Origin: Terriglobia bacterium
Lineage (GTDB): Bacteria; Acidobacteriota; Terriglobia; UBA7540
Direction: 5' to 3'
Assembly: GCA_035712365.1 (NCBI GenBank)
Contig: DASTAW010000059.1
Span: 1 to 49,060, forward strand
DNA: 49,060 nt
Of the stretch, positions 877 through 49,003 are shown in pieces. The translations under genes and the position numbers were made by a program. The notes under the pieces are model-generated. The model had not been told where the DNA came from. It did no database searches and saw nothing but the letters and a program-made list of their open reading frames with translations. Position 1 is the stretch's first letter; each line of letters opens with the position of its first letter.

Positions 877-1032
877 TCCTGACAGTTAGCCTGGCGCGAC
901 GTGCGGAGCGCGCCTTCGCCGCCGCGATATGTGCGCCACCGAAACTGATTGCCCGTGGTCGCGGCTTCGCGAAGGGGCCTGTAGGCGCCCGAGATCATGC
1001 TTCCTGCAGGCGGGGACGGCACAATGAGCAGC

Positions 1033-1845
1033 TTACGGTTGGAGGCTGAGCGCCTGCTCGGCCCAGGCGTTAGAAGCCTCGTGAGAGGGAGTATGGGCCG
1101 AGCGGGGCTGCAGTCTGAATTCCGCCACGACCGGCAGATGGTCTGAGGCAACCAGCGCCTTGCGGCTGCGGTGGAGCGCCAGCCGGTGGAGCTTGAGGGT
1201 ATCGTCAAAATAGATGTGGTCAAGCCGCAGCAGCGGCAGGACACAAGGGTACGTCCGCCGGTGGGCGAAGCGTGACCGACGGGCCCAGCCGAAGTGGGCG
1301 GAGAGCAGCCGGGTGGCTTCTCCGGGAATCCACTCATTAAAGTCACCCAAAACGATGCGCGTTCCGGAGAGTTCGCTGTTGCAGAGGATTCGCAGGCTGG
1401 TCAAGTGGCGGGCCTGCTCGCCCCGCTCGCGGTAGGCGGTGCCGAGGTGCACGTTGAACAGGTGCAGGACGCATCCGTCGGGCAGCCGCACGTCGGTTCG
1501 GAGCACGCCTCGCGGCTCGCGGCCACGCGTTGTGATGTCGTAATTCCGCCATCGGACAATCGGAAAGCGCGAGAGCAGCAGGTTGCCGTAAGCCGCCCCG
1601 TTGTGCCGCCTGTTTTCGCCGAAGGCCGGATGATAACCGAGTGCGTCCGCCACGTAGCAGGTCTGGTCCTCGCACATAGGTGAACCGCACCCCACCACTT
1701 CCTGAAGTGCCACAATGTCCGCATCGATTTCTCGGAGCACCTGGGCAATCCTACGGGGACGCACGCGCTGGTCGAGTCCGCGGCATTTGTGGATGTTGTA
1801 AGTGGCTACGCGAAGGGTATGAGACCGTCCTGTTTCAATTTCCAT
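1033..1845 (-). CDS. Endonuclease/exonuclease/phosphatase family hydrolase
   Basis: A 270-residue Mg2+-dependent phosphodiesterase of the EEP (DNase I-like) superfamily. The signature residues are in order: TYNIHK with Asn17, LQEV with Glu49, GDFNEW with Asp168 and Asn170, LDHI with Asp209 and SDHLPV with Asp235-His236. The full set suggests an active enzyme; the substrate (nucleic acid, phospholipid or inositol phosphate) cannot be read from sequence. It lies 137 bases downstream of the phospholipase D-like gene on the same strand; EEP and PLD genes are often paired, suggesting a lipid or envelope role (inference). No signal peptide is seen. The gap between them carries two copies of a dispersed GCGCTACA repeat. 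Confidence 0.85.
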   Translation of the reverse strand: MEIETGRSHTLRVATYNIHKCRGLDQRVRPRRIAQVLREIDADIVALQEVVGCGSPMCEDQTCYVADALGYHPAFGENRRHNGAAYGNLLLSRFPIVRWRNYDITTRGREPRGVLRTDVRLPDGCVLHLFNVHLGTAYRERGEQARHLTSLRILCNSELSGTRIVLGDFNEWIPGEATRLLSAHFGWARRSRFAHRRTYPCVLPLLRLDHIYFDDTLKLHRLALHRSRKALVASDHLPVVAEFRLQPRSAHTPSHEASNAWAEQALSLQP

Positions 1846-1863
1846 AAGCGGATTAGCCCACTG

Positions 1864-1912
1864 GGTTGAAGCCCGGCGCTACAAACCCGTGAAATGCCGG
1901 GCGCTACAAACA
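1864..1912. repeat. Dispersed repeat, CCCGGCGCTACAAA family (two copies)
   Basis: The string GCCCGGCGCTACAAAC is followed at once by a variant, GCCGGGCGCTACAAAC, separated by CCGTGAAAT. The same CCCGGCGCTACA word recurs near 36689, and a palindromic relative lies at 39651-39703. Such short intergenic repeats are common in acidobacterial genomes. It sits between the PLD-like and EEP genes. Confidence 0.6.
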
Positions 1913-1982
1913 CCTGCCCATCTAATTATTAGATGCAAAGCCGGCGGCCGTCGGCTGAGTTTGGCGGAAAATTTCTGCTGTC

Positions 1983-3497
1983 TCAGGGCGATTCCAAGGG
2001 AGCGGGCGGGCTGCCCTCGGCGTCTCTCGCGTGCTCGGCCGGCTTCTTCCGTGGAAAGCGCAGCCGCCATGCCTGCACGAGGAGCGTCAGCGCGATCCAG
2101 GCGGCCAGAAAGGCCAGCACCCCGGCAACCACTTTGGGTAACAGGACGGCAAAGGCCACAAGCCCCAGAAGCGTGAGTCCCCCCGACAGCATCACGGAAG
2201 CCTCCGCCGGCCCCAGAACACGGCTGCTGGTGACCGCAGCGCCCACTGCCTTGCCGAGTCGCAGCACTCCCGTGGCCGCCCAGGTGGCGCTGCCACGGGC
2301 AGCCCCGCGGGGCCTCCTGCGCATTCCTCGCGGCACGACAGGGCTGGGATGGTGCTTGGCAGACAGGACAATCTCAGTGGCGCCGTGCAGATCGTCCAGA
2401 TACATGGCCTGCATCTCGCCCGCGAATCCTTCGTCTTCTACAATCACGTCGAGTTCCCAGTTGCTGACCCAGCTCGCGATGTTGAGATTGGTTGAACCTA
2501 CGCGCGCCCAGCGGCCGTCTGCGACCGCGGTTTTGGCGTGGAGCATAGGGCCATTCCACTCGAAAATACGCACGCCGGCTTCGAGCAGCGTGCGGTAACC
2601 GGCGCGCGAAACGGCCCGGATAAACGGCACGTCGGAGGCGCGTGGCAGCAGCAGGCGAACGTCCACACCGTCAGCCGCGGCGGCACAAAGGGCCTGGACG
2701 TAGGATGACGTTCCTAAAAAATAGGCATCGGTCAGCCAGATGGATTCCCGCGCCACGGCGGCAATCAACTGGTCGAGCCGGTACATCGACGCCACGCCCG
2801 GCTGGGTGGCGATGATCCGCAGGGCTACATCCCCCGTAGCCTCAGGGCAAGGTCGGCCGATCCCCAGATCGCTCTCAGGCAGCGGCGCGCCGCAGGTGGC
2901 CCAGGTTGACGCAAAGGCCCGTTCAACCTCGGGCAATGCCGGCCCTTCGATTGAAACGCCTGTGTCGCGCCAGGGAGCGATACGCCGCGCGGGATTGCCC
3001 GCCCACTCCCGGCCCACGCACAGCCCTGTGACGAAGGCGATCTGGTTGTCCACAATAATGGTCTTCCGATGGTCACGGCTGAGCCAGCCGAAGGCGCTAT
3101 CGACGCGCGGCGGGTTAAAGCATCTCACCTCGACTCCGGCGCGCCGGAGTCGCCGCCAAAAGCTCCACCCGGTGCGGGCGATGGCTCCCATCCAGTCATA
3201 AAGCACCCGCACGTGGACGCCTTCGCGGGCCTTGCTGACAAACAGGTCTGCGAATTCGCGCCCTATGTCGTCGTCGTGGATGATGTAACTTTCAAAATGG
3301 ACCGTGCGCCGGGCTTCGCGAATGGCTTTTTTCCAGGCGGGGTAATTCTCTTCCGCGTCGCGCAGCAATTGGACTCTGTTGCCGCCGATCAGCGGCGCCC
3401 CCGCCGCGCGCGAGAATGCCTGGTCAGCAAGCACGCGAACCGACGAAGGCGCGTTGCCTGCCACGGGCACAATGGGGATGTCGGGTGCGGCCATCAA
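1983..3497 (-). CDS. Phospholipase D-like protein (cardiolipin synthase type)
   Basis: A 504-residue protein with two complete HKD motifs: H143-x-K145-x4-D150 in HRKTIIVDN and H320-x-K322-x4-D327 in HAKTAVADG followed by GSTN. Two such domains in this order are typical of cardiolipin synthases and other phosphatidyltransferases, which join phospholipids by a phosphatidyl-histidine intermediate. Unlike ClsA, the membrane segments are at the C-terminus (about residues 432-478, two helices) rather than the N-terminus, as in some PLD proteins of this phylum. The start gives Met-Met; either may be used. It probably heads a transcript continuing into the EEP gene. Upstream lies a MITE-like element. 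Confidence 0.85.
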   Translation of the reverse strand: MMAAPDIPIVPVAGNAPSSVRVLADQAFSRAAGAPLIGGNRVQLLRDAEENYPAWKKAIREARRTVHFESYIIHDDDIGREFADLFVSKAREGVHVRVLYDWMGAIARTGWSFWRRLRRAGVEVRCFNPPRVDSAFGWLSRDHRKTIIVDNQIAFVTGLCVGREWAGNPARRIAPWRDTGVSIEGPALPEVERAFASTWATCGAPLPESDLGIGRPCPEATGDVALRIIATQPGVASMYRLDQLIAAVARESIWLTDAYFLGTSSYVQALCAAAADGVDVRLLLPRASDVPFIRAVSRAGYRTLLEAGVRIFEWNGPMLHAKTAVADGRWARVGSTNLNIASWVSNWELDVIVEDEGFAGEMQAMYLDDLHGATEIVLSAKHHPSPVVPRGMRRRPRGAARGSATWAATGVLRLGKAVGAAVTSSRVLGPAEASVMLSGGLTLLGLVAFAVLLPKVVAGVLAFLAAWIALTLLVQAWRLRFPRKKPAEHARDAEGSPPAPLESP

Positions 3498-3536
3498 CCA
3501 CTATCATACCGCGTGGAATGCAAGGAATCTCTGGTA

Positions 3537-3636
3537 GTGGCTCAGTTTGATTTGTGCACGGGCGTCCTCGCCCGTACTGCCGCGAAAAGACACGGCCAGG
3601 ATGGCCGTGTCACAAATAGGAACCAAACTGAGTCAC
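3537..3636. mobile_element. MITE-like nested inverted repeat, about 100 bp
   Basis: The outer arms GTGGCTCAGTTTG (3537-3549) and CAAACTGAGTCAC (3624-3636) are inverted copies with one mismatch. A second block, ATTTGTG and CACAAAT, follows inside. The centre carries two more hairpins, ACGGGCGTCCTCGCCCGT and GACACGGCCAGGATGGCCGTGTC broken by short spacers. It has no coding capacity. It fills the divergent gap between the PLD-like and DUF1801 genes. The layout suits a miniature inverted-repeat element or a large REP/BIME-type repeat. Confidence 0.55.
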
Positions 3637-3741
3637 CACCGAATCTCGCCCTGACTTGCGGCGCCGTTATGGAAGATTAGGACCCCGGGCCTGGAATGAC
3701 GAATGCGGAAATAAGGCGGGAGCTCTTGTAAGATTCCAGGC

Positions 3742-4149
3742 ATGAAGAAATTGAAATCCGGCAAGGGCGCCGCTGTGGCGAAAGCCAAAGGCCCTGCGAA
3801 AAACGTCGATGAATATCTTGCCGGAGTCCCGGAACCAGCCCGAAGTACGTTGCAGAAGGTTCGCGCGACGATTCGATCCGCGGCTCCGCCCGAGGCCACT
3901 GAGACCATCAGTTACGGAATGCCCGCACTCAAGCACAATGGAATTCTGGTGTGGTTTGCCGCGTTTTCGAACCACTGCAGCCTGTTTCCAACCTCATCAG
4001 TCATAGAAGCCTTGAAGGATGAACTGAGGGGACTCCACATTTCAAAAGGAACTGTCCAATTCCCCACGGACAAGCCGTTGCCGGCTGCGCTTGTTAAGAA
4101 GATGGTGAAATTGCGGGTCACGCAGAACGAAGACAGGAAGCGGCGCTGA
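3742..4149 (+). CDS. DUF1801 domain protein (YdhG/iron-chaperone-like)
   Basis: A 135-residue protein. After a basic, disordered N-terminus of about 22 residues, the DUF1801 fold begins at VDEYLAGVPEPAR and runs through the hallmark ATETISYGMPAL, a LVWFAAFSNHCSLFP strand pair, and the KGTVQFPTDKPLP loop to the end. Members include YdhG of Bacillus and frataxin-like iron chaperones, but for most, including this one, no activity is shown. It is probably cytosolic and monocistronic; the neighbours on both sides are on the minus strand. The assignment to the family is firm, function open. Confidence 0.8.
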   Translation: MKKLKSGKGAAVAKAKGPAKNVDEYLAGVPEPARSTLQKVRATIRSAAPPEATETISYGMPALKHNGILVWFAAFSNHCSLFPTSSVIEALKDELRGLHISKGTVQFPTDKPLPAALVKKMVKLRVTQNEDRKRR

Positions 4150-4205
4150 CCTCACAGTTTGTCTGCTGTTTTTGCCTGGGTGGGTCTTGACGCGACCACC
4201 AACCA

Positions 4206-5348
4206 TCAGCCCATCACTGCGTCGCCGATAATTCTGGCCGCAACCGGGCAGCCGACGGTGAAGCCGAAGAAGGGGCCGAAGTCGCGCGTGGCGGCCAGGC
4301 CGCTGATATAGAGGCCGCGGAGATTGGTCTGGAATTCCGGGTCGAGCGCAGGAAAACCGTCAATCGTCGCCAGCCGGTCAAGGACCGTATCGCGGTCCAG
4401 GAAGCCTACATTGCCCATGGCCGGGCGGTAACCGGTGGCGAGGATGACGTGGTGCACATTGCACCTTGAGTTGTCGCTCAACTTGACTTCATACGTGCCG
4501 TCGGCCTGCGCGCCCGCCGATTCGATGCAAGCCTTCTCGTGCCGGTGGATGTTGGGTTGATCGACGCGCGCGGCGAGCCACTCTTCCAGGACCAGTCGGC
4601 CCGCCATCCAAAAATCCTTTTGAATTTGCTCCCGCTCGCCGGACCCGAGCTTTCTCCACCAGGCATGGTCCTGGAGCGTTCGCCACACCATGGGCTTCAC
4701 CCACGACCAGTCCGGCCCCGTAAAACTGGGCGTGGCATGGCGGTACACCACGTGGACTTCCTCTGCGCCATGCTCGCGGATCAGCGCCGCCCATTCGAAG
4801 GCGCTCTGGCGTCCACCGACAATCAAAACGCGCTTACTTCGGTACTGCTCGAAATGGACTGCGTCGCAGGTGTGCGTGAATGAGCCGGGAGGCAGTTTCC
4901 GGGTGAGATCATCCGGGTAGTGTTTGAAACAAGCGAACCCAAGACCGAGCAGGATCTTGCCGGCGCAAAGGCGCGATCCGTCGTCGAGCGACGCGACATA
5001 GATGCCCCCGGACCACATCAAGTGAACGACGTGGGCATTGCGCGGGATGACGCCGTATTGCCCCATGAACCACCCGGCATAATCGAGAAAGGTGTCGAGC
5101 GGCACGGGGCTGGCTTCGGCGGGCGTCAGTTCGCGCCCGCTCAGGTAGGCTTCAAACGTGGCGGTCTGGCGCGCATCAAGGTGCCAGTCCCGGCCTGAAC
5201 GCAGGAACATGCCCGGCGGCATATTGCTCTTCCAGAAGTCCAGGGTTTTCCCGACGATAGTGACGCTGATTCCGAGCGATTGGGCATATGCCGCGGCAGC
5301 AAGACCGTATGGTCCCGCGCCAATAACGAGGAATTCAGTCCGTTCCAA
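4206..5348 (-). CDS. FAD/NAD(P)-binding oxidoreductase (flavin monooxygenase-like)
   Basis: A 380-residue two-dinucleotide-domain flavoprotein. The FAD site is GAGPYG at residues 10-15, a second Rossmann motif GGRQSAFEWAALI follows near mid-protein for NAD(P)H, and ATGYRP near the C-terminus is the conserved motif of flavin monooxygenases and ornithine-hydroxylase relatives. The start is TTG at 5348-5346, chosen because GGAGG lies ten bases upstream and no other start lies before the FAD motif. It follows the alcohol dehydrogenase by 25 bases and is very likely co-transcribed with it. The substrate is unknown; an N- or Baeyer-Villiger-type oxygenation, or a disulfide-independent reductase role, all remain possible. 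Confidence 0.8.
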   Translation of the reverse strand: MERTEFLVIGAGPYGLAAAAYAQSLGISVTIVGKTLDFWKSNMPPGMFLRSGRDWHLDARQTATFEAYLSGRELTPAEASPVPLDTFLDYAGWFMGQYGVIPRNAHVVHLMWSGGIYVASLDDGSRLCAGKILLGLGFACFKHYPDDLTRKLPPGSFTHTCDAVHFEQYRSKRVLIVGGRQSAFEWAALIREHGAEEVHVVYRHATPSFTGPDWSWVKPMVWRTLQDHAWWRKLGSGEREQIQKDFWMAGRLVLEEWLAARVDQPNIHRHEKACIESAGAQADGTYEVKLSDNSRCNVHHVILATGYRPAMGNVGFLDRDTVLDRLATIDGFPALDPEFQTNLRGLYISGLAATRDFGPFFGFTVGCPVAARIIGDAVMG

Positions 5349-5373
5349 CCCCTGATTTCCTCCTCACCCTCGT

Positions 5374-6432
5374 CTATTCCGACCTGAGAGAAGCCATATC
5401 GATGGAGAAGCGGTATTTGACGTCGGACTTGAGCAACCTCTCATACGCTTCGTTGACCTTCTGAATGGGGATGACTTCGACATCGGAGGTGATGTTGTGC
5501 TGGCCGCAGAAATCAAGCATCTCCTGGGTCTCGGCGATGCCGCCGATCAGCGAGCCGGAGAGACTGCGGCGCCTGAGCAAAAGCCCGAAGGCGCCGACAC
5601 TGAGAGGCTTTGCCGGCGCGCCAACCAGCGTGATGTTACCGTCGCGTTTCAGCAGGTTGATGTAGGCGTTGATGTCGTGGTCAGCGGAAACGGCGTCAAG
5701 GATGAAGTCAAAGCTGTCGGCATGCTTCTGCATCTCATCGGCATTTCGTGAAACCACTATTTCATCAGCGCCGAGGCGTAGCGCATCATCCTTCTTGCCG
5801 GGTGAAGTGGTGAAAACAACCACGTGGGCTCCGAGCGCGTTGGCAAACTTCACTGCCATGTGGCCAAGCCCGCCAAGACCCACAACCCCAACTTTCTTCC
5901 CCTTGCTCACGCACCAGTGCCGCATGGGCGAGTACGTTGTGATTCCTGCGCAGAGGAGAGGCGCCGCCCCGGCGAGGTCGAGGCCGGAAGGAACCCGCAG
6001 CACGAACCGCTCGTCAACCACTATGCTGTCGGAATAGCCGCCATAGGTGACGCCCCCGAGGTGCTTGTCCGGAAAACTGTAGGTGAGGGTCACGTTTGGG
6101 CAGAACTGTTCCTGGCCGGCACGGCACTCCGGGCAGGTGCGGTCGGAATCAACCATGCAGCCGATCGCGGCGATGTCGCCGGATTTGAACTTCTTCACGG
6201 CGGAACCGACTTTAGTGACGCGTCCGACGATCTCGTGGCCGGGGACGCAGGGATAGCTGGTGGGCATCGCCTCGCTCCATTCGTTACGGACCGTGTGCAG
6301 ATCGGAGTGGCAGATGCCGCAGAACAGTATCTCAAGCTGCACATCGGTTTCAATCGGATCGCGCCTCGAAATTACCGCCGAGGCAAGTGGTGATGTGGCG
6401 CTCGAAGCAGAATAGGCCTTCGCTTTGTACAT
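5374..6432 (-). CDS. Zinc-dependent NAD(P)-alcohol dehydrogenase (YahK/CAD type)
   Basis: A 352-residue medium-chain dehydrogenase. Catalytic zinc ligands are Cys38 in CGICHSDLH and His66-Glu67 in GHE, and the cofactor site is [13 protein letters not shown]. The sequence is closest to the cinnamyl-alcohol-dehydrogenase/YahK branch, which reduces aldehydes to alcohols with NADPH. The structural zinc lobe has Cys100, Cys103 and Cys111, but position 97, normally the first cysteine (DSC in YahK), is Asp; an aspartate could still bind zinc. It lies 25 bases upstream of the flavin oxidoreductase and about 190 bases downstream of the cupin, all on one strand, suggesting a small aldehyde/carbonyl-metabolism group. 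Confidence 0.88.
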
Positions 6433-6624
6433 GGATTCAAGCTCCTATATAGAAATTATACTTTGCGTGCAGGGTGGGCCGGCGCGCGAGGCCAATAACA
6501 GGTCGTTGATCATGAATCTCCCGCTCCGCCGCAATCCTGCAGGGTCTCGGGCTTTGATGCTCACTTTCAAGTTCGGTTGCGGGCAAGCTGTCTTCTCCCG
6601 TTCTCCCCAAAATGGTCTCCGGAC

Positions 6625-7020
6625 TTATTTCCGGTATTGTTCGTCGGATACCTTCTCCATCCACTCGACCACCTTGCCATCCTTTTTTTCGTGGACGGCG
6701 ATGTGCATCATGGCGGTGGCCGGCGTGGCCCCGTGCCAGTGCTTTTCGCCTGGAGCGAACCAGACCACATCTCCCGGCCGAACCTCCTCGACTGGTCCGC
6801 CCCAGCGCTGCACCCAGCCACAGCCGGAGGTAACGATGAGAGCCTGGCCCAGAGGATGGGTGTGCCACGCAGTGCGCGCGCCCGGCTCGAATGTTACGCT
6901 GGCGCCTTGAACAAGCGCTGGATCAGTCGTCTGAATAAGCGGATCAATCCGCACCGTGCCGGTGAACCACTCTGAAGGACCTTTCACAGAAGGTTGCGAG
7001 CCCACTCTTTTGATTTCCAT
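6625..7020 (-). CDS. Cupin, manganese hydroxynitrile lyase-like
   Basis: A 131-residue single-domain cupin. Start chosen at ATG 7020-7018, eight bases after AGGAG; a GTG three codons upstream lacks such spacing. From memory it matches the Mn-dependent hydroxynitrile lyase of Granulicella tundricola along its length. The metal ligands fall at the same numbers, His53, His55, Gln59 and His94, and His106 matches the catalytic histidine. Residue 110 is His, where the Granulicella enzyme has Gln and where a laboratory Q110H change raised activity. The in vivo role of this family is unclear: cyanohydrin cleavage may be a side activity, and many relatives are called carboxymuconolactone-type or quercetinase-like cupins. 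Cytosolic; first gene of the cupin-dehydrogenase-flavoprotein group. Confidence 0.85.
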
Positions 7021-7874
7021 TCGCTGCACTCCTCTTGTCGATGCTGAGAATCATAGATTTCCTGTTCCCGGTTCACTGCCGCTGTCGAAAGGGAACCGGC
7101 AATTACACAGACGTCTTGGCTTCGGCCAGCATTCGATCGATCTCTTCCGTTCACCGAACCCCAAGGGTGGAGACTTCCAAGTTTACTCCTTTACGCTGCC
7201 TGGCAGGAAGAAGATACGACTCTATGTCCGTAAATGGACGGGCGCTCGTCCTAAAGCTTTGAAGCAGGGGAGGGAGGATGGCCGCGCCCGCCAAAGAAAG
7301 CAAGTCAACCGGCAGGATATGGATCACGTGCGGCGCTCAATGCTGTTGTGCTTTACACGCCGGGTTTCCAACCGTGCTCGATAAGTGAACCCCGGGGTAG
7401 AAATCCTGGTTGGTTTTCGAAATCGGATAGGCGCGGCTGGCGAAGTATAGATCCGCCCGGTCCAAGTTCCCACCGAGAAGAACTGCTGCCGAACCAAGCT
7501 CTCTTGCATAACGAACACGGGTGGTCAAGCGTGGCAGTGGGCGTTTACAGACAGTACAGAGTCATCCAATTAGCAGGAGCACTCACCGGCCCGATTACTG
7601 CTTCTCCTCCGTGTGCGCCGTTGGAATCGTGCGGCTGGCGCGCCCGGCCCGCCTTCCCGGGATACAAACAGCTTGTGTGCTTCACACCGCCTGCCTCTCA
7701 CAGATATCTCAGCAGACGATTGCAGCGTTTTTTATCCGCAGCAAAAAATTAATTTATCCAAAAGTTTTTTATCGCACGCAACATAACTATTGATTGGACA
7801 GCAAATACACAATTTCATTATGGTAACCACGCTGGTTGGGGCAGAACTCCAAAAAGACAAGGAAGGGCCCTGGA
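7021..7874. other. Long divergent intergenic region
   Basis: About 850 bases between the minus-strand cupin and the plus-strand porin. Open frames here are short, overlap on both strands and match no family. The last part (7735-7830) is strongly AT-rich with A and T runs and probably contains the promoter of the porin-ammonium transporter block. I could not find a convincing sigma-54 (GG-N10-GC) site, nor a clear -35/-10 pair. Confidence 0.5.
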
Positions 7875-9188
7875 ATGAAACTCTCACGGCTTACCGTGGG
7901 GCCAATGGTGGTCTTCTTCACAATTGTAACGAACTGTTTCTGGTTGAATGCCCAGCAGGCCCCTGGAACGGCAGGATCGACAATCGCGGCTGACGCTTCT
8001 GCGAAGATCGAGGAACTCCAGAAGGAACTGGATGCGCTCAAAGCCCAAATTGATCAATTGAAGAAAGCCCGGGAAAAGAATGAGGCGCCGGCAGCCGATC
8101 CGGGATCTGCGGTGGTGACGCCAGTGCCAGCCGCGACCGCCCGGAAGCCAGGCTTGGCGGAAACCCTCTTTGATTCCACTACGATCAGCGGTTCTGTTGA
8201 TGGGTACTACGGACTTGATTTTGAACACCCGGCAAGTCGTCAGGCGGGGCTGAGAGTCTTTGACAATTACACCAACCAATTCTCGTTGAACCTTGCTGAA
8301 CTTGTTGTCAAAAGAAGCCCGGACAAGAACACCCGGTTGGGTTACAACCTGACCTTAGGATTCGGAAATGCCATGCACGTGGTTAACGCATTGGAGCCGG
8401 GAGGAGAATCGTTTGCTCAAAATGTGAAGGAAGCATATCTTTCGTACCTTGCGCCAATTGGCAAGGGAGTTCAAATCGACTTCGGGAAATTTGTAACTCC
8501 AGCAGGTGCAGAAGTGATCGAATCCGCTCCCGGCTGGAATTACAGCCGGGGCATCCTGTTCGGTTTTGCCATCCCGTTCTACCACTTTGGACTTCGAGCT
8601 GCATACTCCTTCAGCCCCAAGGTCGCGCTGACGGGTTATCTGGTCAACGGCTGGAACAATATTGTTGCTGTCAACACTGGAAAGACCTACGGGTTCAGCC
8701 TGGCATTGGCGCCCAGCTCCAAGGTGAGCATCACTCAAAATTATCTGGGCGGGCCCCAAACGCCAAACACCAATGCACATTGGCGGCATCTGTCGGACAC
8801 GGTGGTTCAGTTCAACGTAACCCCCAAATTCTCCCTGCTGGAAAACTTTGACTACGGAGCCGGGGACATGATCCCAGGAGTAAATTCGGTGAAGTGGACC
8901 GGGATCGCAACCTACGCGCGATACGCGTTCAATGACAGGAACGCATTTGCCGCCCGGTACGAATACTACGACGATCAAAACGGCTTCACCACCGGGACCG
9001 TCCAGCACATCCAGGAATACACCCTAACTCTGGAACGCACTTTCGCTCATGGGCTGATCAGCCGCCTGGAATTCCGGCGCGACATGTCGGATGTCCCATT
9101 CTTTCGGCGCAGCGTGGACCTGACGAAGAACCAAAACACCATGGAATTAGGTCTCATCTACGTCTTTGATATTCATGGGGCCAGGTAA
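7875..9188 (+). CDS. Outer-membrane beta-barrel porin (BBP2 type)
   Basis: A 437-residue exported protein. Start chosen at ATG 7875, preceded by AAGGAAGG. A signal peptide (MKLSRLTVGP..., cleavage probably after NAQ) is followed by a coiled coil at about residues 38-65 (KIEELQKELDALKAQIDQLK), a Pro/Ala linker and a barrel of alternating amphipathic strands from about residue 95 to the end. The pattern, including GYYGLDFEHP and FGKFVTPAGAEVIES, fits the putative beta-barrel porin-2 family. The coiled coil probably trimerises or spans towards peptidoglycan. It lies 119 bases before the ammonium transporter, so it may admit ammonium or small nitrogen compounds (inference). The protein ends VFDIHGAR, not the usual terminal aromatic. 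Confidence 0.82.
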   Translation: MKLSRLTVGPMVVFFTIVTNCFWLNAQQAPGTAGSTIAADASAKIEELQKELDALKAQIDQLKKAREKNEAPAADPGSAVVTPVPAATARKPGLAETLFDSTTISGSVDGYYGLDFEHPASRQAGLRVFDNYTNQFSLNLAELVVKRSPDKNTRLGYNLTLGFGNAMHVVNALEPGGESFAQNVKEAYLSYLAPIGKGVQIDFGKFVTPAGAEVIESAPGWNYSRGILFGFAIPFYHFGLRAAYSFSPKVALTGYLVNGWNNIVAVNTGKTYGFSLALAPSSKVSITQNYLGGPQTPNTNAHWRHLSDTVVQFNVTPKFSLLENFDYGAGDMIPGVNSVKWTGIATYARYAFNDRNAFAARYEYYDDQNGFTTGTVQHIQEYTLTLERTFAHGLISRLEFRRDMSDVPFFRRSVDLTKNQNTMELGLIYVFDIHGAR

Positions 9189-9307
9189 GTGTCAGACATG
9201 GCGTGTTGAAGAATGAAATTCAAGAGCGATTGCACATTTCACATTCAGGGCGAACCCGAACCATATTGATGCCCATTGTATTCTTTTCGTCGAAAGGAGA
9301 AAAACTG

Positions 9308-10948
9308 ATGTCCGCCACTCTGAGAGAAGGCCCACAGCTTTCAATGTCAGAAAAACTCTCGCGACTGCGGAAGCGGTTGCGCGACCCTGAATGGCGCCAG
9401 TACGGGAAGATTTTGCTGGGCGGCAAGGCATTGGGAGTGGGACTCGTGATCCTCGTTGTGATGATTGGCGCCGGGAAATTTTTCACCAGCGCATACGCCG
9501 CTGACACGCCGGTAAAAGCAGGCGACGTGATTAACCCGGTGAACACTGCATGGACCCTCATCGCGGCGTTCCTGGTTTTCGGTATGCAAGTCGGCTTCAC
9601 GATGCTTGAAGCCGGTTTCTGCCGCAGCCGCGAAACCGTTAACGTGCTCGTCGAATGCGTGGTAGATACTTGCCTCTGCGGCATCCTGTTCTACGCCGTA
9701 GGTTTCGCATTTATGTTCAGCCACGGCAATGGGTTCATCGGCTATCACTGGTTTTTTCTGCAGAACGCGCCCGCTACCTACGAAAGCACCGGTGTGGCAT
9801 TTTTAGCGGTTTGGATATTCCAATTCGCATTTGCCGACACGTGTTCGACCATAACCTCCGGTGCGATGATTGGGAGGACCGGATTCGTCGGCGATCTTCT
9901 CTACAGCATCTGCGTCACGGGGTTTATTTACCCGATCATTGGACACTGGGCGTGGGGCCCCGACGGATGGCTGGCGACTATGGGAAGCTCCGGACATTTC
10001 TTCTCAGCCTTGGGGACGGGCTTCCATGATTTTGCGGGGTCGACAGTCGTCCATACGATAGGTGGATTCATCGCGTTGGCGGGCGCCATCGTTTTGGGTC
10101 CGCGCCTCGGACGGAAATTCAAACGCGACGGCGGCGCTCCGATGCTTCCCCATGATTTGACCATCGCCGTCACTGGCGGACTGATTCTGTGGTTCGGCTG
10201 GTACGGCTTCAACCCGGGAAGTACTCTATCCGCCATGGACTTTGAAGGCATCGGCCGGGTTGCAGCAAACACGACCCTGGCCGCGTGCGCTGCCGGCCTT
10301 ACGTCCATCCTTTACGGCTATCTTAGGAACCAAAAATGGGATGCGGGCTATACCACGAACGGATTTCTGGCCGGACTCGTTGCAATTACCTGTCCCTGTT
10401 ATTGGGTCAGCCCGACGGGCTCAATATTGCTGGGCGGAATCGCCGGAGTACTGGTCATTCTGGGAGTTGACTTGCTCGAATGGCTGCGAATCGACGATCC
10501 CATCGGCGCAGTTCCCGTCCATGGTCTTTGCGGTATTTGGGGAACCTTATCGCTCGGACTTTTTGCCTGTGGCAGTTATGGAGCCCCCGGACCTCTTGCC
10601 GCCGATAACTCTGCTCCTCTAAAGGGACTGTTTTACGGGGGCGGAACCCATTTGCTGGTTGCGCAAGCGATCGGTAGCGCAATCGTCACATCGGCGACAT
10701 TTGCAATCGCCATGGCCGTTATGCTGGCTGTGAACGCAACCGGAACCCTTCGACTTTCACCAGAGGCGGAACTCTACGGTATGGATCTGCATGAACACGG
10801 GATCTCAGCTTACCCAGAGTATCAGATTTCACCGTTCGCCGCGCCGACTGGGCTGGCTGTCCAAACTGATGCCGCCACCAAAGCCTCGGGTCTTTCAGCC
10901 AAATCGCTGGCTCGTGCCAGTGTCTCCCCTGAGGAATTAACACCCTGA
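9308..10948 (+). CDS. amt: Ammonium transporter
   Basis: A 546-residue Amt/MEP/Rh family channel for NH4+/NH3 in the inner membrane. Start at ATG 9308, seven bases after AAAGGAG (9294-9300). Residues 40-65 form an extra N-terminal hydrophobic segment ending SAYAA, probably a cleaved signal. The core starts at NTAWTLIAAFLVF. Family residues are present: Asp241 and His249 in HDFAGSTVVHT (matching Asp160 and His168 of E. coli AmtB), the second pore histidine in PVHGLCGIWG, and FQFAFAD for the phenylalanine gate. The cytoplasmic tail of about 80 residues is longer than usual. The P-II gene follows, the classic amtB-glnK pairing in which GlnK plugs the channel when nitrogen is plentiful. Confidence 0.95.
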   Translation: MSATLREGPQLSMSEKLSRLRKRLRDPEWRQYGKILLGGKALGVGLVILVVMIGAGKFFTSAYAADTPVKAGDVINPVNTAWTLIAAFLVFGMQVGFTMLEAGFCRSRETVNVLVECVVDTCLCGILFYAVGFAFMFSHGNGFIGYHWFFLQNAPATYESTGVAFLAVWIFQFAFADTCSTITSGAMIGRTGFVGDLLYSICVTGFIYPIIGHWAWGPDGWLATMGSSGHFFSALGTGFHDFAGSTVVHTIGGFIALAGAIVLGPRLGRKFKRDGGAPMLPHDLTIAVTGGLILWFGWYGFNPGSTLSAMDFEGIGRVAANTTLAACAAGLTSILYGYLRNQKWDAGYTTNGFLAGLVAITCPCYWVSPTGSILLGGIAGVLVILGVDLLEWLRIDDPIGAVPVHGLCGIWGTLSLGLFACGSYGAPGPLAADNSAPLKGLFYGGGTHLLVAQAIGSAIVTSATFAIAMAVMLAVNATGTLRLSPEAELYGMDLHEHGISAYPEYQISPFAAPTGLAVQTDAATKASGLSAKSLARASVSPEELTP

Positions 10949-11124
10949 CGCCGAGATCCATAGGGCAGGCCGGAAACTCGGCGAGGTCTTCCAACAAAGG
11001 CGAGGTCGACAAAACTTGAGCCACAGGCGCATCGTTGGCAGTACCCTATGACGCGACAGAAGTTACGGGCGATACGGAATCACGCGAGCCCAGGTGATAT
11101 CCGCGCTGCAAAAGGAGAACGATG

Positions 11125-11463
11125 ATGACGAAGGTCGAAGCGATAATTCAGCCTGCCAGATTCGAGTCTGTCAAACAGGCGTTGATTGAGATTGGCATAG
11201 AGGGAATGACGGCCTCGGAGGTGCGCGGCCACGGCCGGCAGAAAGGCCATACGGAAATGTATCGCGGTCACGAATACAGGTCCGATATGTTGCCGAAAAT
11301 AAAATTCGAGATTGTGATAGACGATAAGAGCGTGGATGCCGTACTGGATGCCATCATTGAGAATGCTTCCACCGGGAAAATCGGCGATGGCAAAATTTTC
11401 CTTTCCAAGATCGACGATGTCATCCGGATCCGCAGTCGAGAGCGCGGGGTCGCAGCTCTATAG
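11125..11463 (+). CDS. glnK: P-II family nitrogen regulatory protein
   Basis: A 112-residue P-II protein of standard length. The T-loop GRQKGHTEMYRGHEY ends in Tyr51, the uridylylation site; the B-loop TGKIGDGKIF binds ATP/2-oxoglutarate; and VIRIRSRERG is the C-terminal signature. Two in-frame ATGs (11122, 11125) follow AAAGGAG; the second gives the canonical MTKVEA start and better spacing. As a trimer it senses 2-oxoglutarate and ATP/ADP and gates the ammonium transporter encoded 176 bases upstream. The gap holds a 7-bp inverted repeat (10949-10955/10977-10983) without a T-run. Naming it glnK rather than glnB rests on its place next to amt. Convergent with the P-type ATPase. Confidence 0.93.
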   Translation: MTKVEAIIQPARFESVKQALIEIGIEGMTASEVRGHGRQKGHTEMYRGHEYRSDMLPKIKFEIVIDDKSVDAVLDAIIENASTGKIGDGKIFLSKIDDVIRIRSRERGVAAL

Positions 11464-11481
11464 CCTGGATCGGCTGAGGAT

Positions 11482-14208
11482 TCACGGAGCTATCGACTGC
11501 CGGCGCGTCACCCACTTCTCTAGCTCAACGGCGGCGAGGACTATCGAGCTAACCGCGGCTGTCAGCAGTAGATCTGGTACCGGCAGGGCGACCGTTTTGA
11601 AAATCGGTTGGAGGAACGGCACATAGATCAGGGCAAGCTGCAAGACTACCGTCAGCCCTACCGCGCCCAGGAGCGGCAGGTTGGATTTCAGCCCGATTTC
11701 AAAAACAGACCAGCGCTCTGACCGGATGGCCATAACGTGCGCCATTTGCGAGAGCGTGAGGGTCGTGAATACCATGGTCTGCCAGGCGGGATCATGGGCC
11801 TTCCAGTACTCGTAGCCGACAGCGAGAGAAAGGATCCCCATCAGCACTCCCACCCAGAGAGTGTGCCTTCCCAGGCCGCGCGCGAACATGCTCTCCTGCG
11901 GCGGTCGCGGCGGGCGCCGCATCACATCGGACTCTGCCGGTTCCACGCCGAGGGCAAGGGCTGGCAGGCCGTCCGTCACGAGGTTCATCCACAGTATCTG
12001 GAGCGGAAGCAGAGGCAGGGGCATTCCCAGGAATGGGGATGCCAGCATCAGCCAGATTTCGCCCGAGTTCGTTGCCAGGATGTAACGGATGAATTTGCGG
12101 ATGTTGTCATAGATCACCCGGCCTTCTTCTACAGCAGCGACAATGCTGGCAAAGTTGTCATCCAGCAACACCATGTCAGCAGCTTCCTTTGAAACGTCTG
12201 TCCCCGTTATTCCCATGGCGATGCCGATGTCGGCTTTCTTCAGCGCCGGAGCATCGTTCACGCCATCACCGGTCATCGCGACGATATGGCCGCGCCGGTG
12301 AAGGCCCTCCACGATCTGCAGCTTGTGCTCCGGAGAAACCCTTGCGTAAACCGCGGCGGATTCCGTCAGTTGCGCAAGTTCCGCGGGCGAGGTCCGCTCG
12401 AGTTGCGTGCCTGTCACGACCGTCCCGCCATCGGAGATTCCAAGCTGGCTGGCGATATAGCGGGCGGTCAGAGGGTGGTCGCCGGTGATCATCATTGGCC
12501 GGATGCCGGCCGCCTTACAGGTGCTGACCGCAGCCGCGGCTTCCTGCCGGGGCGGATCAATCATTCCAATCATGCCAACAAAGGTGAGATTGCGTTCCAC
12601 ATCTTCCACATCGCCTTTGGGCGGGGCAGCAGCCAGGCAGCGATAGGCCACGCCGAGCACGCGCATCCCGTTGGCCGCCAGGTTGTCGTTCTCAGCAGAG
12701 AGCCGGTCACGCCAGGCGCCGTTCAAAGGCTCTTGCTGGTCGCTGAGCCAGACGGTATCCGAAAGGCCCAGGAGAACATCAACCGCTCCCTTGGTGAAGG
12801 CGATATAGAAGGCAGGCCTCATGTGGCAGGCCTGGTGAACTGCCGGAGGGAGGTCCGCGCGATCGGAATCGTAACGGTGGACTGTTGTCATTCGTTTGCG
12901 TTCAGACGTGAAGGGGGCTTCGGCAATTCTCGGCAGTGAGAGATCCAACTCCGGCTTCAGGAGACCTGTCCGGGCTGCCGCCACAACCAGAGCGGTTTCG
13001 GTAGGATCACCCAGAGGGCCAGACTGCTTCGAACTGCCGTCGGTTGACCGCATCACGGCGTCATTACATAACGCGGCTCCTGCGAGCATCAGGTCGAATC
13101 CAGGCTGCCTGAGTTCAGGAAACTCCTTGCGGTAGTCGTCCGAGCCGCGGTTTTGCAATTCTACCCTGTGATCGGCAAGCTGGAAAGAGGTCGCAGCCAT
13201 CCGGTTTTCGGTCAACGTTCCGGTCTTGTCCGAACAGATCACCGTAACGGATCCCAGGGCTTCGACAGCAGAAAGCTTGCGGATCAAAATCCTGCGCTTC
13301 AGCATGCGCTGGGCGCCCAGTGTCAAAGCGATGGTCATGATGGCTGGCAGACCCTCCGGCACGGCAGCAACAGCAATGCTGACGGCAGTCAGAAAAAGGA
13401 CCTTCAGGTCTTCACCCCGAAGCCAGCCAAGGGCGAAGATCAGAAGGACGATTAATAACGCCGCCGCAGCCAGGATCTTTCCGAGCTGCACTAGACGCTT
13501 TTGCAGCGGCGTGGCTTCCTGCCGCACGGCCTGGATCATGCCGGCGATCCGCCCCAATTCCGTCCGCATGCCGGTTTCCGCAACAAGAGCTTCTCCTCGC
13601 CCTGAGGTTACGTGGGTCCCCAGGTAAACCATGTTGTGGCGGTCAGCGAGCGCCAGATCGGGTTGCAGAAGCGCCGCGCTTGTTTTCCCGACGGGCAGTG
13701 ACTCGCCGGTCAGAGCGGCTTCCTGAGTCTGGAGATTCGCGCTTTCTAGAACACGGCAATCAGCGGCAACAGAGTTACCCGCCTCGAGCAGGACGACGTC
13801 GCCGGGAACGAGTTCCTTGGCGGAGATCTCGCTAATTTCTCCGTCCCGCCGCACTTTCACTGTTGGTACGGCCAGCTTCTTCAGGGCCGCCATCGCCTTT
13901 TCCGCTCGATACTCCTGGGAAAAGCCGAGGACCGCGTTGAGGATCACGATGGCCCCGATGGCAATGGCATCATTGTAGTCGCCGAGTAGAGCGGAGACTA
14001 TGGCAGCGATGATCAGGATGACCACCATCAGTTCCTTCAACTGATCGAGGAAAATCAGCCAGGGGCCCCTGGCTCCGCTCTCTTCAAGTTCATTGCGGCC
14101 GAACTCGGAGAGCCGCCGTGTGGCTTCAACCCTGGTCAGACCGGTGACGGGATTACTCCCCAGTTCTTTTGCCGCGGACTGTGGATCGATCTGGTACCAA
14201 TTGGCCAT
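11482..14208 (-). CDS. Ca2+-type P-type ATPase (P2A)
   Basis: A 908-residue cation pump. In order: an N-terminal cation-ATPase domain, TGES at 167-170 (actuator), VPEGLP at 283-288 in M4, the phosphorylated Asp327 in DKTGTLT, the nucleotide-binding domain, [17 protein letters not shown], and six C-terminal membrane helices. Calcium-site residues of SERCA are kept: Glu in PEGL, Asn and Glu in NSGEIW (M5), and Asn, Thr, Asp in NLVTDG (M6). This supports Ca2+ export, though Mn2+ or Na+ pumps share much of the pattern. No clear ribosome site precedes the ATG. The gene is alone on its strand, convergent with glnK. Confidence 0.93.
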
Positions 14209-17433: not shown

Positions 17434-18345
17434 TCAGACAGGCAGGCTCCAGCCTTTGGCGCCTCGATTGTCGGGCAGGAGAATGGAGTAACTCGACTCC
17501 ACGCCTTTTTCTCGCAAGACCCGGCAGATGGCCTCGCCCACCTCAGGTGCGTGTGTTTTGGTGAACGCCAGAATCGATGGTCCGGCGCCGCTCAGGCACA
17601 GGCCCAGCAAGCTCGAGTGTTTCAACGCAAGAACTTCACTCAGGCCGGGCATCAACTCCGCGCGGTAGGGCTGGTGCAGGCGGTCGTCAAAGAGACCCGG
17701 GTGGAAATCCACCTTGCCTGAAAACATCTGTGCTGACAGCACTGCGGCCCTCTGGATGTTGTGAGTTGCATCTGCCCGTGAATATTGGGCCGGCAACACG
17801 GCGCGGGCCTTTTCTGTAGCAAGCGCGTAATTGGGAATCACCAGCACCAGGTGGAACAAGTCCGGTACGGGAGAAGAATAGGCCACCACGCGCTGCTTCT
17901 CCTGCATCGCCACGGTGAAACCTCCGTGCCACGCCGCCGCAACATTGTCCGGGTGCCCTTCAATCTCGGTCGCGAGTGAAACCATCTCGTTATCGTAAAG
18001 CGCCCGCTCCGTAAGCCAGTGGGCCGCTGCGATGGCGCCAACAATAGCTGCCGCGCTGGATCCCAGTCCCACGCCTACCGGAATCTGATTGTTGATTTCC
18101 AGGTCGAATCCGTAGTCGTTGCCCCATCGCTGCAGGATCTTCTTCATGCTGGAGGCAATCAGATTATTTTCGTCGGAAGGGATTCTGTCCGGATTCGTGC
18201 CCTTGTAGTGGACACTGACGCCGAGGTCAGACCGCCGCGTTACGTGGATGTCGAGGTAAAGGTTCAGGGCCAGCGCCGCACAGTCAAAGGCACATCCCAG
18301 ATTGGCGCTGGTGGCAGGAACTCGTACTGAACCGCGCTGGGGCAT
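17434..18345 (-). CDS. thrB: Homoserine kinase
   Basis: A 303-residue GHMP kinase that makes O-phosphohomoserine from homoserine and ATP. Motif 1 is PATSANLGCAFDCAALAL (family form NLGPGFDCLG; here CA replaces PG), motif 2 the phosphate loop PVGVGLGSSAAA at 89-100, and motif 3 LCLSGAGPSILAF near the C-terminus. Length is normal. It is the last gene of a riboswitch-led operon, 36 bases after the sulfur-carrier gene. Its product is the substrate of threonine synthase and, in organisms that use it, of homocysteine formation, so it could serve threonine and methionine branches alike. The ribosome site (AAGG two to three bases from the ATG) is weak, suggesting translational coupling. Confidence 0.92.
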   Translation of the reverse strand: MPQRGSVRVPATSANLGCAFDCAALALNLYLDIHVTRRSDLGVSVHYKGTNPDRIPSDENNLIASSMKKILQRWGNDYGFDLEINNQIPVGVGLGSSAAAIVGAIAAAHWLTERALYDNEMVSLATEIEGHPDNVAAAWHGGFTVAMQEKQRVVAYSSPVPDLFHLVLVIPNYALATEKARAVLPAQYSRADATHNIQRAAVLSAQMFSGKVDFHPGLFDDRLHQPYRAELMPGLSEVLALKHSSLLGLCLSGAGPSILAFTKTHAPEVGEAICRVLREKGVESSYSILLPDNRGAKGWSLPV

Positions 18346-18749: not shown

Positions 18750-19997
18750 TCAGGCGCTTGCCGCCGCGTGAAGTTTGAGGTAACGGTCCTCGAAATCCGC
18801 CAGCTTCGGCCGGATTGCTTCCTCGGCGCTGATGGCTTCCCTTACGGCCCCAATGGTTTTCAGTCCGTTTCCGGTTATCGCCAGCACTGTTGATTCATCG
18901 GGATTCAAAGTGCCATTTCGGATGAGCTTGCGCGCCACGGCCACGGTCACACCGCCCGCGGTTTCCGCGAAAAAGCCCTCAGTCTCGGCCAGCGATCGAA
19001 TGCCTTCAACCACTTCGGGGTCTGAAACATCCTCCCCCGCGCCGCCGGTCTCCTGGATCACCTTGGAAGCATAAAAGCCGTCAGCCGGGTTGCCGATCGC
19101 GAGAGATTTTACGATCGTGTTCGGCTTCTGCGGGACGATTTCGCAGGTACCGTTCCGGGCAGCCGTGGTGATGGGAGAACATCCAGTGGCCTGGGCCCCG
19201 TAAAACCTGGTTGCCGCCGGCTCAATCCACCCGAGCTTCTTGAACTCTCCAAAGGCCTTGTGGATTTTTGTGATCAGCGATCCACCGGCCATAGGAACCA
19301 CAATGTTCTGTGGTACCCGCCAGCCAAGTTGCTCCGCGATTTCATAGCCGAAAGTCTTCGAGCCTTCAGAGTAGTAAGTACGCAGGTTGACGTTCACCAT
19401 CCCCCATGAGTACTTCTGTGAGATTTCGCTGCAGAGCCGGTTCACCTGGTCGTAATTCCCGCTCACCTTCACCAGAGTGGCGCCGTAAATTTGTGTGTTG
19501 ATGAGTTTTTCCGGTTCCAGATCAGCCGGAACGAAAATAAAACTCTTGAACCCACCCGCTGCCGCCTGTGCGGCAACGGAGTTTGCCAGGTTTCCGGTCG
19601 AAGAGCATCCAACGGTCTCAAAGCCAAACTCTCGCGCCTTGCTAAGTGCTACGGCAACCACGCGATCTTTGAAGGAAAGGGTGGGGAAGTTGACGGCGTC
19701 GTTCTTAAGGTACAATTCCCGTACTCCCAGTGCCTTGGCAAGACGCGGAGCCGCTACCAGGGGCGTGAACCCCGTTGAGTGTCCCACAGCAGGCTCGCCG
19801 GTCACGGGCAGTAGTTCCTTATAACGCCACATCGTGGGCAGTCGCGATTCCACCTGTGTTCGGGGGACTTCCGCCCGGATCCGCTTGTAATCGTAAACCA
19901 CTTCCAGGGGTGCCCAGCAATTTTCGCAGGCAGCGATTGGCTCAATCTGATAAGTCTGCCCGCACTGTCGGCATTCCAAAAATTTGAGATAGCTCAC
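18750..19997 (-). CDS. thrC: Threonine synthase-like PLP enzyme with N-terminal zinc ribbon
   Basis: A 415-residue fold-type II PLP enzyme. A zinc ribbon (Cys9, Cys12, Cys24, Cys27) precedes the catalytic domain. HSTGFTPL, the PLP lysine Lys110 in SFKDR, and SSTGNLANS (phosphate and substrate loop) are family hallmarks. Threonine synthase converts O-phosphohomoserine to threonine. Start chosen at GTG 19997-19995, four bases after GGAGG; an upstream in-frame ATG at 20102 lies inside the terminator hairpin of the leader and is unlikely. A SAM-I riboswitch controls it, unusual for threonine synthesis, and a CysO-like sulfur carrier follows. It could thus be a homocysteine or other sulfur-transfer enzyme using O-phosphohomoserine (inference). 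The homology-based name is kept. Confidence 0.85.
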   Translation of the reverse strand: MSYLKFLECRQCGQTYQIEPIAACENCWAPLEVVYDYKRIRAEVPRTQVESRLPTMWRYKELLPVTGEPAVGHSTGFTPLVAAPRLAKALGVRELYLKNDAVNFPTLSFKDRVVAVALSKAREFGFETVGCSSTGNLANSVAAQAAAGGFKSFIFVPADLEPEKLINTQIYGATLVKVSGNYDQVNRLCSEISQKYSWGMVNVNLRTYYSEGSKTFGYEIAEQLGWRVPQNIVVPMAGGSLITKIHKAFGEFKKLGWIEPAATRFYGAQATGCSPITTAARNGTCEIVPQKPNTIVKSLAIGNPADGFYASKVIQETGGAGEDVSDPEVVEGIRSLAETEGFFAETAGGVTVAVARKLIRNGTLNPDESTVLAITGNGLKTIGAVREAISAEEAIRPKLADFEDRYLKLHAAASA

Positions 19998-20065
19998 ATT
20001 TCCTCCAAGCGTCGCTACGGTTCCAGAGTGGCTTGGGGTCGGTAGGAGATTTGGAGAGGGCAAAC

Positions 20066-20099
20066 TAAAAAAGCCTCCCCGGTTCTCATCGGGGAGGCT
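20066..20099 (-). terminator. Riboswitch expression platform: intrinsic terminator before thrC
   Basis: On the minus strand AGCCTCCCC (20099-20091), a ten-base loop and GGGGAGGCT (20080-20072) are followed by a T-run. The 5' arm CTCCCC (20096-20091) can instead pair with GGGGAG from the aptamer 3' side (20133-20128), which would break P4 and P1 of the aptamer and form an antiterminator. This mutually exclusive pairing is the normal design of a SAM-I off-switch: high SAM lets the terminator form. Confidence 0.88.
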
Positions 20100-20122
20100 C
20101 ATACAAAGACTTACGTCCCCTT

Positions 20123-20228
20123 CTCATCTCCCCCAATCACGGGCGGGAGTTAGCACCTGACCCCGGACTTACTTCCCGGGCGGTTGCCGTGGCGTCTTAG
20201 GGCCCGTCCCTCGGCCACTCTGGATGAG
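20123..20228 (-). promoter_or_regulatory. SAM-I (S-box) riboswitch aptamer
   Basis: The minus strand carries the S-box consensus in order: P1 5' strand CTCATC (20228-20223), CAGAGTGGCCGAGGGACGG then GCCC (kink-turn and P2), CGGCAACC (P3 loop region), GGTGCTAACTCC (core joining P3 and P4), a short P4 hairpin, and P1 3' strand GATGAG (20128-20123). It binds S-adenosylmethionine and turns genes off by termination. It sits about 125 bases before the start of the threonine-synthase-like gene and should control the whole three-gene operon. Confidence 0.95.
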
Positions 20229-20261
20229 ATACAGGTCTTACACAACCAAATTGTAGTCTCC

Positions 20262-48909: not shown

Positions 48910-49003
<94 letters not shown>

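Follow-up and report, generated by a model that had tools for sequence, protein, structure and literature searches.

The window (the whole 49,060-nucleotide stretch analyzed here) encodes a cupin that is an ordinary new member of an already named family, that of the (R)-mandelonitrile lyases and the Granulicella tundricola hydroxynitrile lyase (GtHNL). On balance we favor a reading in which this ordinary family cupin would help the cell to cope with aldehyde stress, cyanohydrin cleavage would be secondary, and the histidine at residue 110 would be a tolerated alternative. The gene adds a new sequence to a family used in biocatalysis and shows that one of the engineered residues exists in nature. 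Its neighborhood is a more useful lead than His110, and the recurrent combination of cupin, aldehyde reductase, and YqhC-type regulator among its relatives suggests a cellular function for the family that can be tested.

Table 1. Positions of the features described in the text, numbered from the first nucleotide of the window.
Feature	Position	Strand	Remarks
Flavoprotein: FAD/NAD(P)-binding oxidoreductase, Pyr_redox_3 like	4206..5348	-	25 bp after dehydrogenase
YahK/Ahr-type zinc alcohol dehydrogenase (aldehyde reductase)	5374..6432	-	192 bp downstream of cupin
Cupin, (R)-mandelonitrile lyase family, GtHNL-like, Mn expected	6625..7020	-	131 aa
BBP2 porin gene, then ammonium transporter-like and P-II-like genes	7836..11463	+	divergent from cupin; last two named by eye
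Homoserine-kinase-like gene	17434..18345		named by eye
Threonine synthase-like gene	18750..20102		named by eye
SAM riboswitch (RF00162)	20121..20230	-	78.3 bits
tRNA-Ser (GCT)	48910..49003	-	

The cupin belongs to an already named family

The cupin open reading frame runs from an ATG at 7020-7018 to a stop codon at 6627-6625, although an in-frame GTG at 7029 could lengthen the protein by three residues. Its best phmmer matches among solved structures are 4bif_A (E 6.1e-71), 4uxa_A (2e-70), and 8oz8_A (1.6e-69), all of which are GtHNL, followed at a greater distance by Thermotoga maritima TM1010 (2f4p_A; E 9.5e-27), and these values exclude chance similarity. A gap-free comparison with GtHNL (4bif) gives 102 identical residues of 131 (78%); the two proteins share their length, the ligand positions, H96, and H106, and differ by 29 substitutions, including Q110H in the window protein. 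TM1010 shares the fold and has the aligned H.H...Q and H.H motifs and the later histidine, but is only ~41% identical and its PDB title gives no function. The window cupin scores 207.3 bits against the NCBIfam (R)-mandelonitrile lyase model NF049940 (cut-off 140), and within its own genome this cupin is the sole match at E 0.001 or better. Five AlphaFold models were made from a 30-row alignment, the best with a mean pLDDT of 87.3 and the weakest two with 67.4 and 44.5; the top PDB match of the best model is 4bif (TM 0.90, rmsd 3.1), a cupin barrel like that of GtHNL. Together, the NF049940 score, the match to GtHNL, and the fold model make the gene a plain member of the named family and bear out its preliminary description as a hydroxynitrile-lyase-like cupin.

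The preliminary description also placed all of the metal ligands and the catalytic histidine of the Granulicella enzyme at the same positions in the window cupin. Residues H53, H55, Q59, H94, H96, and H106 are indeed all found where GtHNL has them, and they are present in each of 125 distinct sequences of relatives, as is V42. We take H53, H55, Q59, and H94 to be the metal ligands and H96 the catalytic acid/base; the PDB titles of the GtHNL entries include 'manganese-dependent hydroxynitrile lyase' and 'variant (H96A)'. The protein should carry out (R)-selective cyanohydrin cleavage or formation in vitro; we infer the identity of its metal, its activity, and its cellular substrate.

Residue 110 is a variable position

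Residue 110 had been singled out because histidine there is one of three changes made in the laboratory to improve GtHNL, and the native gene was accordingly proposed to encode a naturally more active relative. The alignment to the Granulicella enzyme confirms that the position is equivalent to GtHNL Q110: it is His in the window cupin (codon CAC, one base away from a Gln codon), Gln in GtHNL, and His in the engineered 4uxa. The improved triple variant is given in a review as A40H/V42T/Q110H (PMC8097096), and the window cupin has A40 and V42, as does wild-type GtHNL, in place of the His40 and Thr42 of the engineered type.

Among relatives we tallied residue 110 in two samples, both of which represent the closest relatives as distinct from the whole family. 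The first consists of 30 loci (the window being one) and the 80 best matches and still holds two rows with internal stops (L047 and L069); it has 95 Gln, eight His, four Val, two Ala, and one Asn. The second joins same-order relatives to these and omits partial, broken, and identical rows: 139 loci less three with no match at 1e-15 and eight that are partial or have an internal stop leave 128 rows, of which 125 are distinct, the window included. Their composition, with the typed GtHNL row left out, is 107 Gln, eight His, six Val, two Ala, one Asn, and one Thr. Histidine is absent from all 19 distinct relatives within the order (20 rows besides the window, L127 and L137 being identical), and the nearest relative, which is of the same genus, has Gln.

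In a tree built without column 110 (130 columns, 126 rows, most forks poorly resolved) the eight His rows require at least seven changes, and we rejected His110 as a clade marker on this ground. The residue likely arose more than once, as these changes suggest, although the strongly supported branches alone force one change and 68 of 500 label shuffles are equally low. The variation among relatives marks position 110 as a variable site at which His is one tolerated state; as far as the sequences tell, nature accepts His there as well as Gln, and His110 by itself says nothing about activity. That His110 makes the window cupin a naturally more active hydroxynitrile lyase would agree with its place among the three engineered changes, but we consider it quite improbable given that only that one change is present, that V42 is invariant, and that His110 recurs in eight of the 125 sequences, with the repeated changes on the tree noted above.

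Aldehyde reductases and AraC-type regulators recur beside related cupins

We called and clustered the open reading frames in the flanks of 120 further cupin loci (the 80 best matches and 40 loci from a genome search). After the cupin itself, the commonest clusters are an aldo/keto reductase (PF00248), a YahK-type dehydrogenase (the cluster to which the window's dehydrogenase belongs), and an AraC regulator carrying an AraC_N domain (PF06719), with Pfam domains read from one aldo/keto reductase, one regulator, and the window dehydrogenase. When 12 randomly drawn members of each cluster serve as queries, one or more of the three are found in 18 of the 40 genome-search flanks and in one of 40 control stretches of 12.5 kb drawn from other parts of 20 of these genomes (Fisher p 4e-6), a comparison that is supportive but not blind, since the clusters were picked as the commonest in these same flanks and the bias favors the cupin flanks. 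The flanks amount to 447,109 bases and the controls to 500,040, and the counts are unchanged when query matches to their own locus or to an identical twin are ignored. For the flanks from the 20 control genomes the contrast is smaller, with six of 20 positive against the same one of 40 controls (Fisher p 0.004).

Half of the flanks in the set of 80 best matches (40/80) also have at least one of the three partners. These positive loci span ten titled phyla, although many come from metagenome bins, which can be mislabeled, and include 16 of 27 Acidobacteriota, eight of 25 Pseudomonadota, four of eight Verrucomicrobiota, and three of three Cyanobacteriota; the AraC_N regulator occurs at cupin loci of Acidobacteriota (eight), Cyanobacteriota (two), Chloroflexota (two), Planctomycetota (one), and Pseudomonadota (one). 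Merging three pairs with identical cupins gives 117 distinct loci, the best 80 matches included, at which 56 have at least one partner and 12 have all three; the other 61 have none of them in the flanks examined, with 37 of the 120 flanks shorter than 10 kb.

Tautomerase and SDR genes also lie near the cupins of some relatives. Their presence would suit a different type of enzyme, such as an isomerase, dioxygenase, or tautomerase-like protein that uses a reactive carbonyl or quinone and is active on cyanohydrins by accident, and so would the low-identity fold neighbors of the AlphaFold model, which include phosphomannose isomerases, DMSP lyases, and acetylacetone dioxygenases. The commonest neighbors are nevertheless reductases, and we consider this explanation rather unlikely.

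The window shares one of the three partners

The dehydrogenase downstream of the cupin has E. coli YahK as its best solved relative (1uuf_A, 1.9e-131) and scores 304.8 bits against the NCBIfam Ahr model, under the cut-off of 470. Eight YahK orthologues of at least 78% identity are found in the order, and five of them adjoin a cupin: that of the window (G000), those of two genomes of the same genus (G433 and G434), and those of G425 and G398; the three in G399, G426, and G431 do not. The aldehyde-reducing dehydrogenase reported as a neighbor in the preliminary description is thus well founded, being of the YahK type and recurring beside the cupins of relatives.

The flavoprotein that follows, which had been proposed as a further pathway partner, is not seen in this position in the other genomes searched. 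Its PDB relatives are weak, and it has no match at 1e-40 in G433 and G434, the other genomes of the genus searched. Close orthologues within the order are found in G425, G426, and G431, none of them sharing a contig with the cupin or the reductase; in G431 both genes are at contig ends and the two contigs have no exact end overlap, such that adjacency is not settled there. Directly after the cupin and reductase of G433 come DUF1801 and phospholipase-D genes, which in the window lie past the flavoprotein, and this arrangement, together with the location of the orthologues on other contigs, makes the flavoprotein of the window a local difference. We rejected it as a member of the unit because, in the genomes searched, it is not retained alongside the cupin (adjacency in G431 aside), and it probably plays no functional part in the cupin unit.

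A scan of positions 4100-7900 for promoters and terminators returned counts near chance (2 found versus 0.9 expected, and 7 versus 4.0), with no minus-strand terminator-like site between the cupin and the dehydrogenase. No aldo/keto reductase match at 1e-25 is found in window positions 1001-13030 and AraC_N (PF06719) has no match in the window's own genome, and thus, of the three types of partner, the YahK-type aldehyde reductase beside the cupin is the only one present here. The suggestion that the neighborhood represents a carbonyl-handling pathway stands in so far as reductases and regulators are enriched at related cupins, but not for the flavoprotein, and the window itself contributes YahK alone. 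Divergent from the cupin is the BBP2 porin gene, followed within the same interval (Table 1) by ammonium transporter-like and P-II-like genes, both named by eye.

Related loci within the order, on plasmids, and in phage records

In 40 genomes of the window's order there are 14 AraC_N regulators in 12 genomes, and for eight of the 14 the distance to a cupin match is less than 5 kb (G398, G399, G405, G414, G417, G421, G432, and G434), a count that is less exposed to the bias of cluster choice than the enrichment in the flanks. At three of these loci the cupin is incomplete or interrupted, as a short fragment in G405, split over two pieces in G398, and with an internal stop in G432. The last of these (G432:C1:123092-123484; L047/L125/L154) has an internal TAG, stands about 4 kb from the AraC_N regulator, and is a probable broken copy; the L047 cupin has Arg in place of His at residue 106.

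Every one of the 40 genomes has at least one nitrilase-superfamily match, but among the matches listed none is within 6 kb of a cupin match, and the window's own genome has no match to aldoxime dehydratase. With nothing of this kind beside the cupin among the matches listed, we rejected the idea of a nitrile pathway. These results also bear on the possibility that the cupin is a true physiological hydroxynitrile lyase that, like those of plants and millipedes, works on naturally occurring cyanohydrins. Such a role would fit the high identity to an enzyme titled hydroxynitrile lyase in the PDB and the NCBIfam family name, which describes (R)-mandelonitrile lyase activity, but neither nitrilase-superfamily genes nor aldoxime dehydratase accompany it in the matches just described and the neighbors are often aldehyde reductases, and we regard it as very unlikely.

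Cupin matches are present in 402 plasmid records, of which four, chosen by hand, were examined. On the Leptolyngbya, Agrobacterium, and Rhodobacter plasmids the cupin has genes for aldehyde or alcohol oxidoreductases no more than 5 kb away, and on the Deinococcus deserti plasmid none is that close. The annotated Leptolyngbya gene order is AraC-cupin-SDR-SDR-ADH-AKR, and on Agrobacterium fabrum pAt1D1478 (L222) the cupin stands by a LysR gene, the paoABC aldehyde oxidoreductase genes, a tautomerase, and an aldo/keto reductase. A carboxymuconolactone decarboxylase family gene is also near the cupin of pAt1D1478, a plasmid typed as conjugative. The phage collection has 17 records with cupins of less than 60% identity; the Acinetobacter phage MD-2021a records (H41 and H42) have a 48% identical annotated cupin and may be host DNA.

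A possible role in aldehyde handling

The partner genes resemble those of an E. coli response to reactive aldehydes. E. coli YqhC is described as activating YqhD, an aldehyde reductase, in response to glyoxal and furfural; furfural also leads it to activate an aldo-keto reductase (PMC5297802). Vanillin is described as raising YahK, YqhD, and DkgA (PMC6561319). AraC_N regulators, aldo/keto reductases, and YahK-type dehydrogenases likewise recur beside the cupins of relatives; unlike these loci, the E. coli response has no cupin named in the passages cited, and the window lacks the regulator and the aldo/keto reductase. For GtHNL, addition of cyanide to ketones is reportedly absent (PMC5413884), which fits an aldehyde site, and nitroaldol activity is reported in the review cited above (PMC8097096).

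We suggest that the metal, a divalent ion (Mn in the case of GtHNL) coordinated by H53, H55, Q59, and H94, would bind an aldehyde or an aldehyde adduct through its oxygen, with H96 serving as acid/base. In the cell the cupin would act on reactive aldehydes or adducts alongside aldehyde reductases, YahK in the window, and in relatives it may work with aldo/keto reductases and YqhC-type AraC_N regulators; the cyanohydrin and nitroaldol activities would be side reactions of the aldehyde-binding site. An aldehyde-binding cupin encoded with the same kinds of proteins as the E. coli response is most simply seen as part of aldehyde handling. More broadly, we tentatively propose, at chances somewhat short of even, that in nature the family belongs, as a component that depends on metal, to a YqhC-type response to reactive aldehydes in several bacterial phyla, its cyanohydrin and nitroaldol reactions being incidental. 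Because the window has the reductase alone and its genome is without AraC_N, the aldehyde reading for this gene rests on its relatives, and the gene neighborhood, from which we read the role, does not identify a substrate. A link between the cupin and YqhC or aldehyde reductases was not found described in the open-license literature searched, and may be in print elsewhere.

Other features of the window

Further along the window, the SAM riboswitch lies directly upstream of the threonine synthase-like gene, with the homoserine-kinase-like gene also listed in Table 1. The tRNA-Ser gene (anticodon GCT) is on the minus strand.
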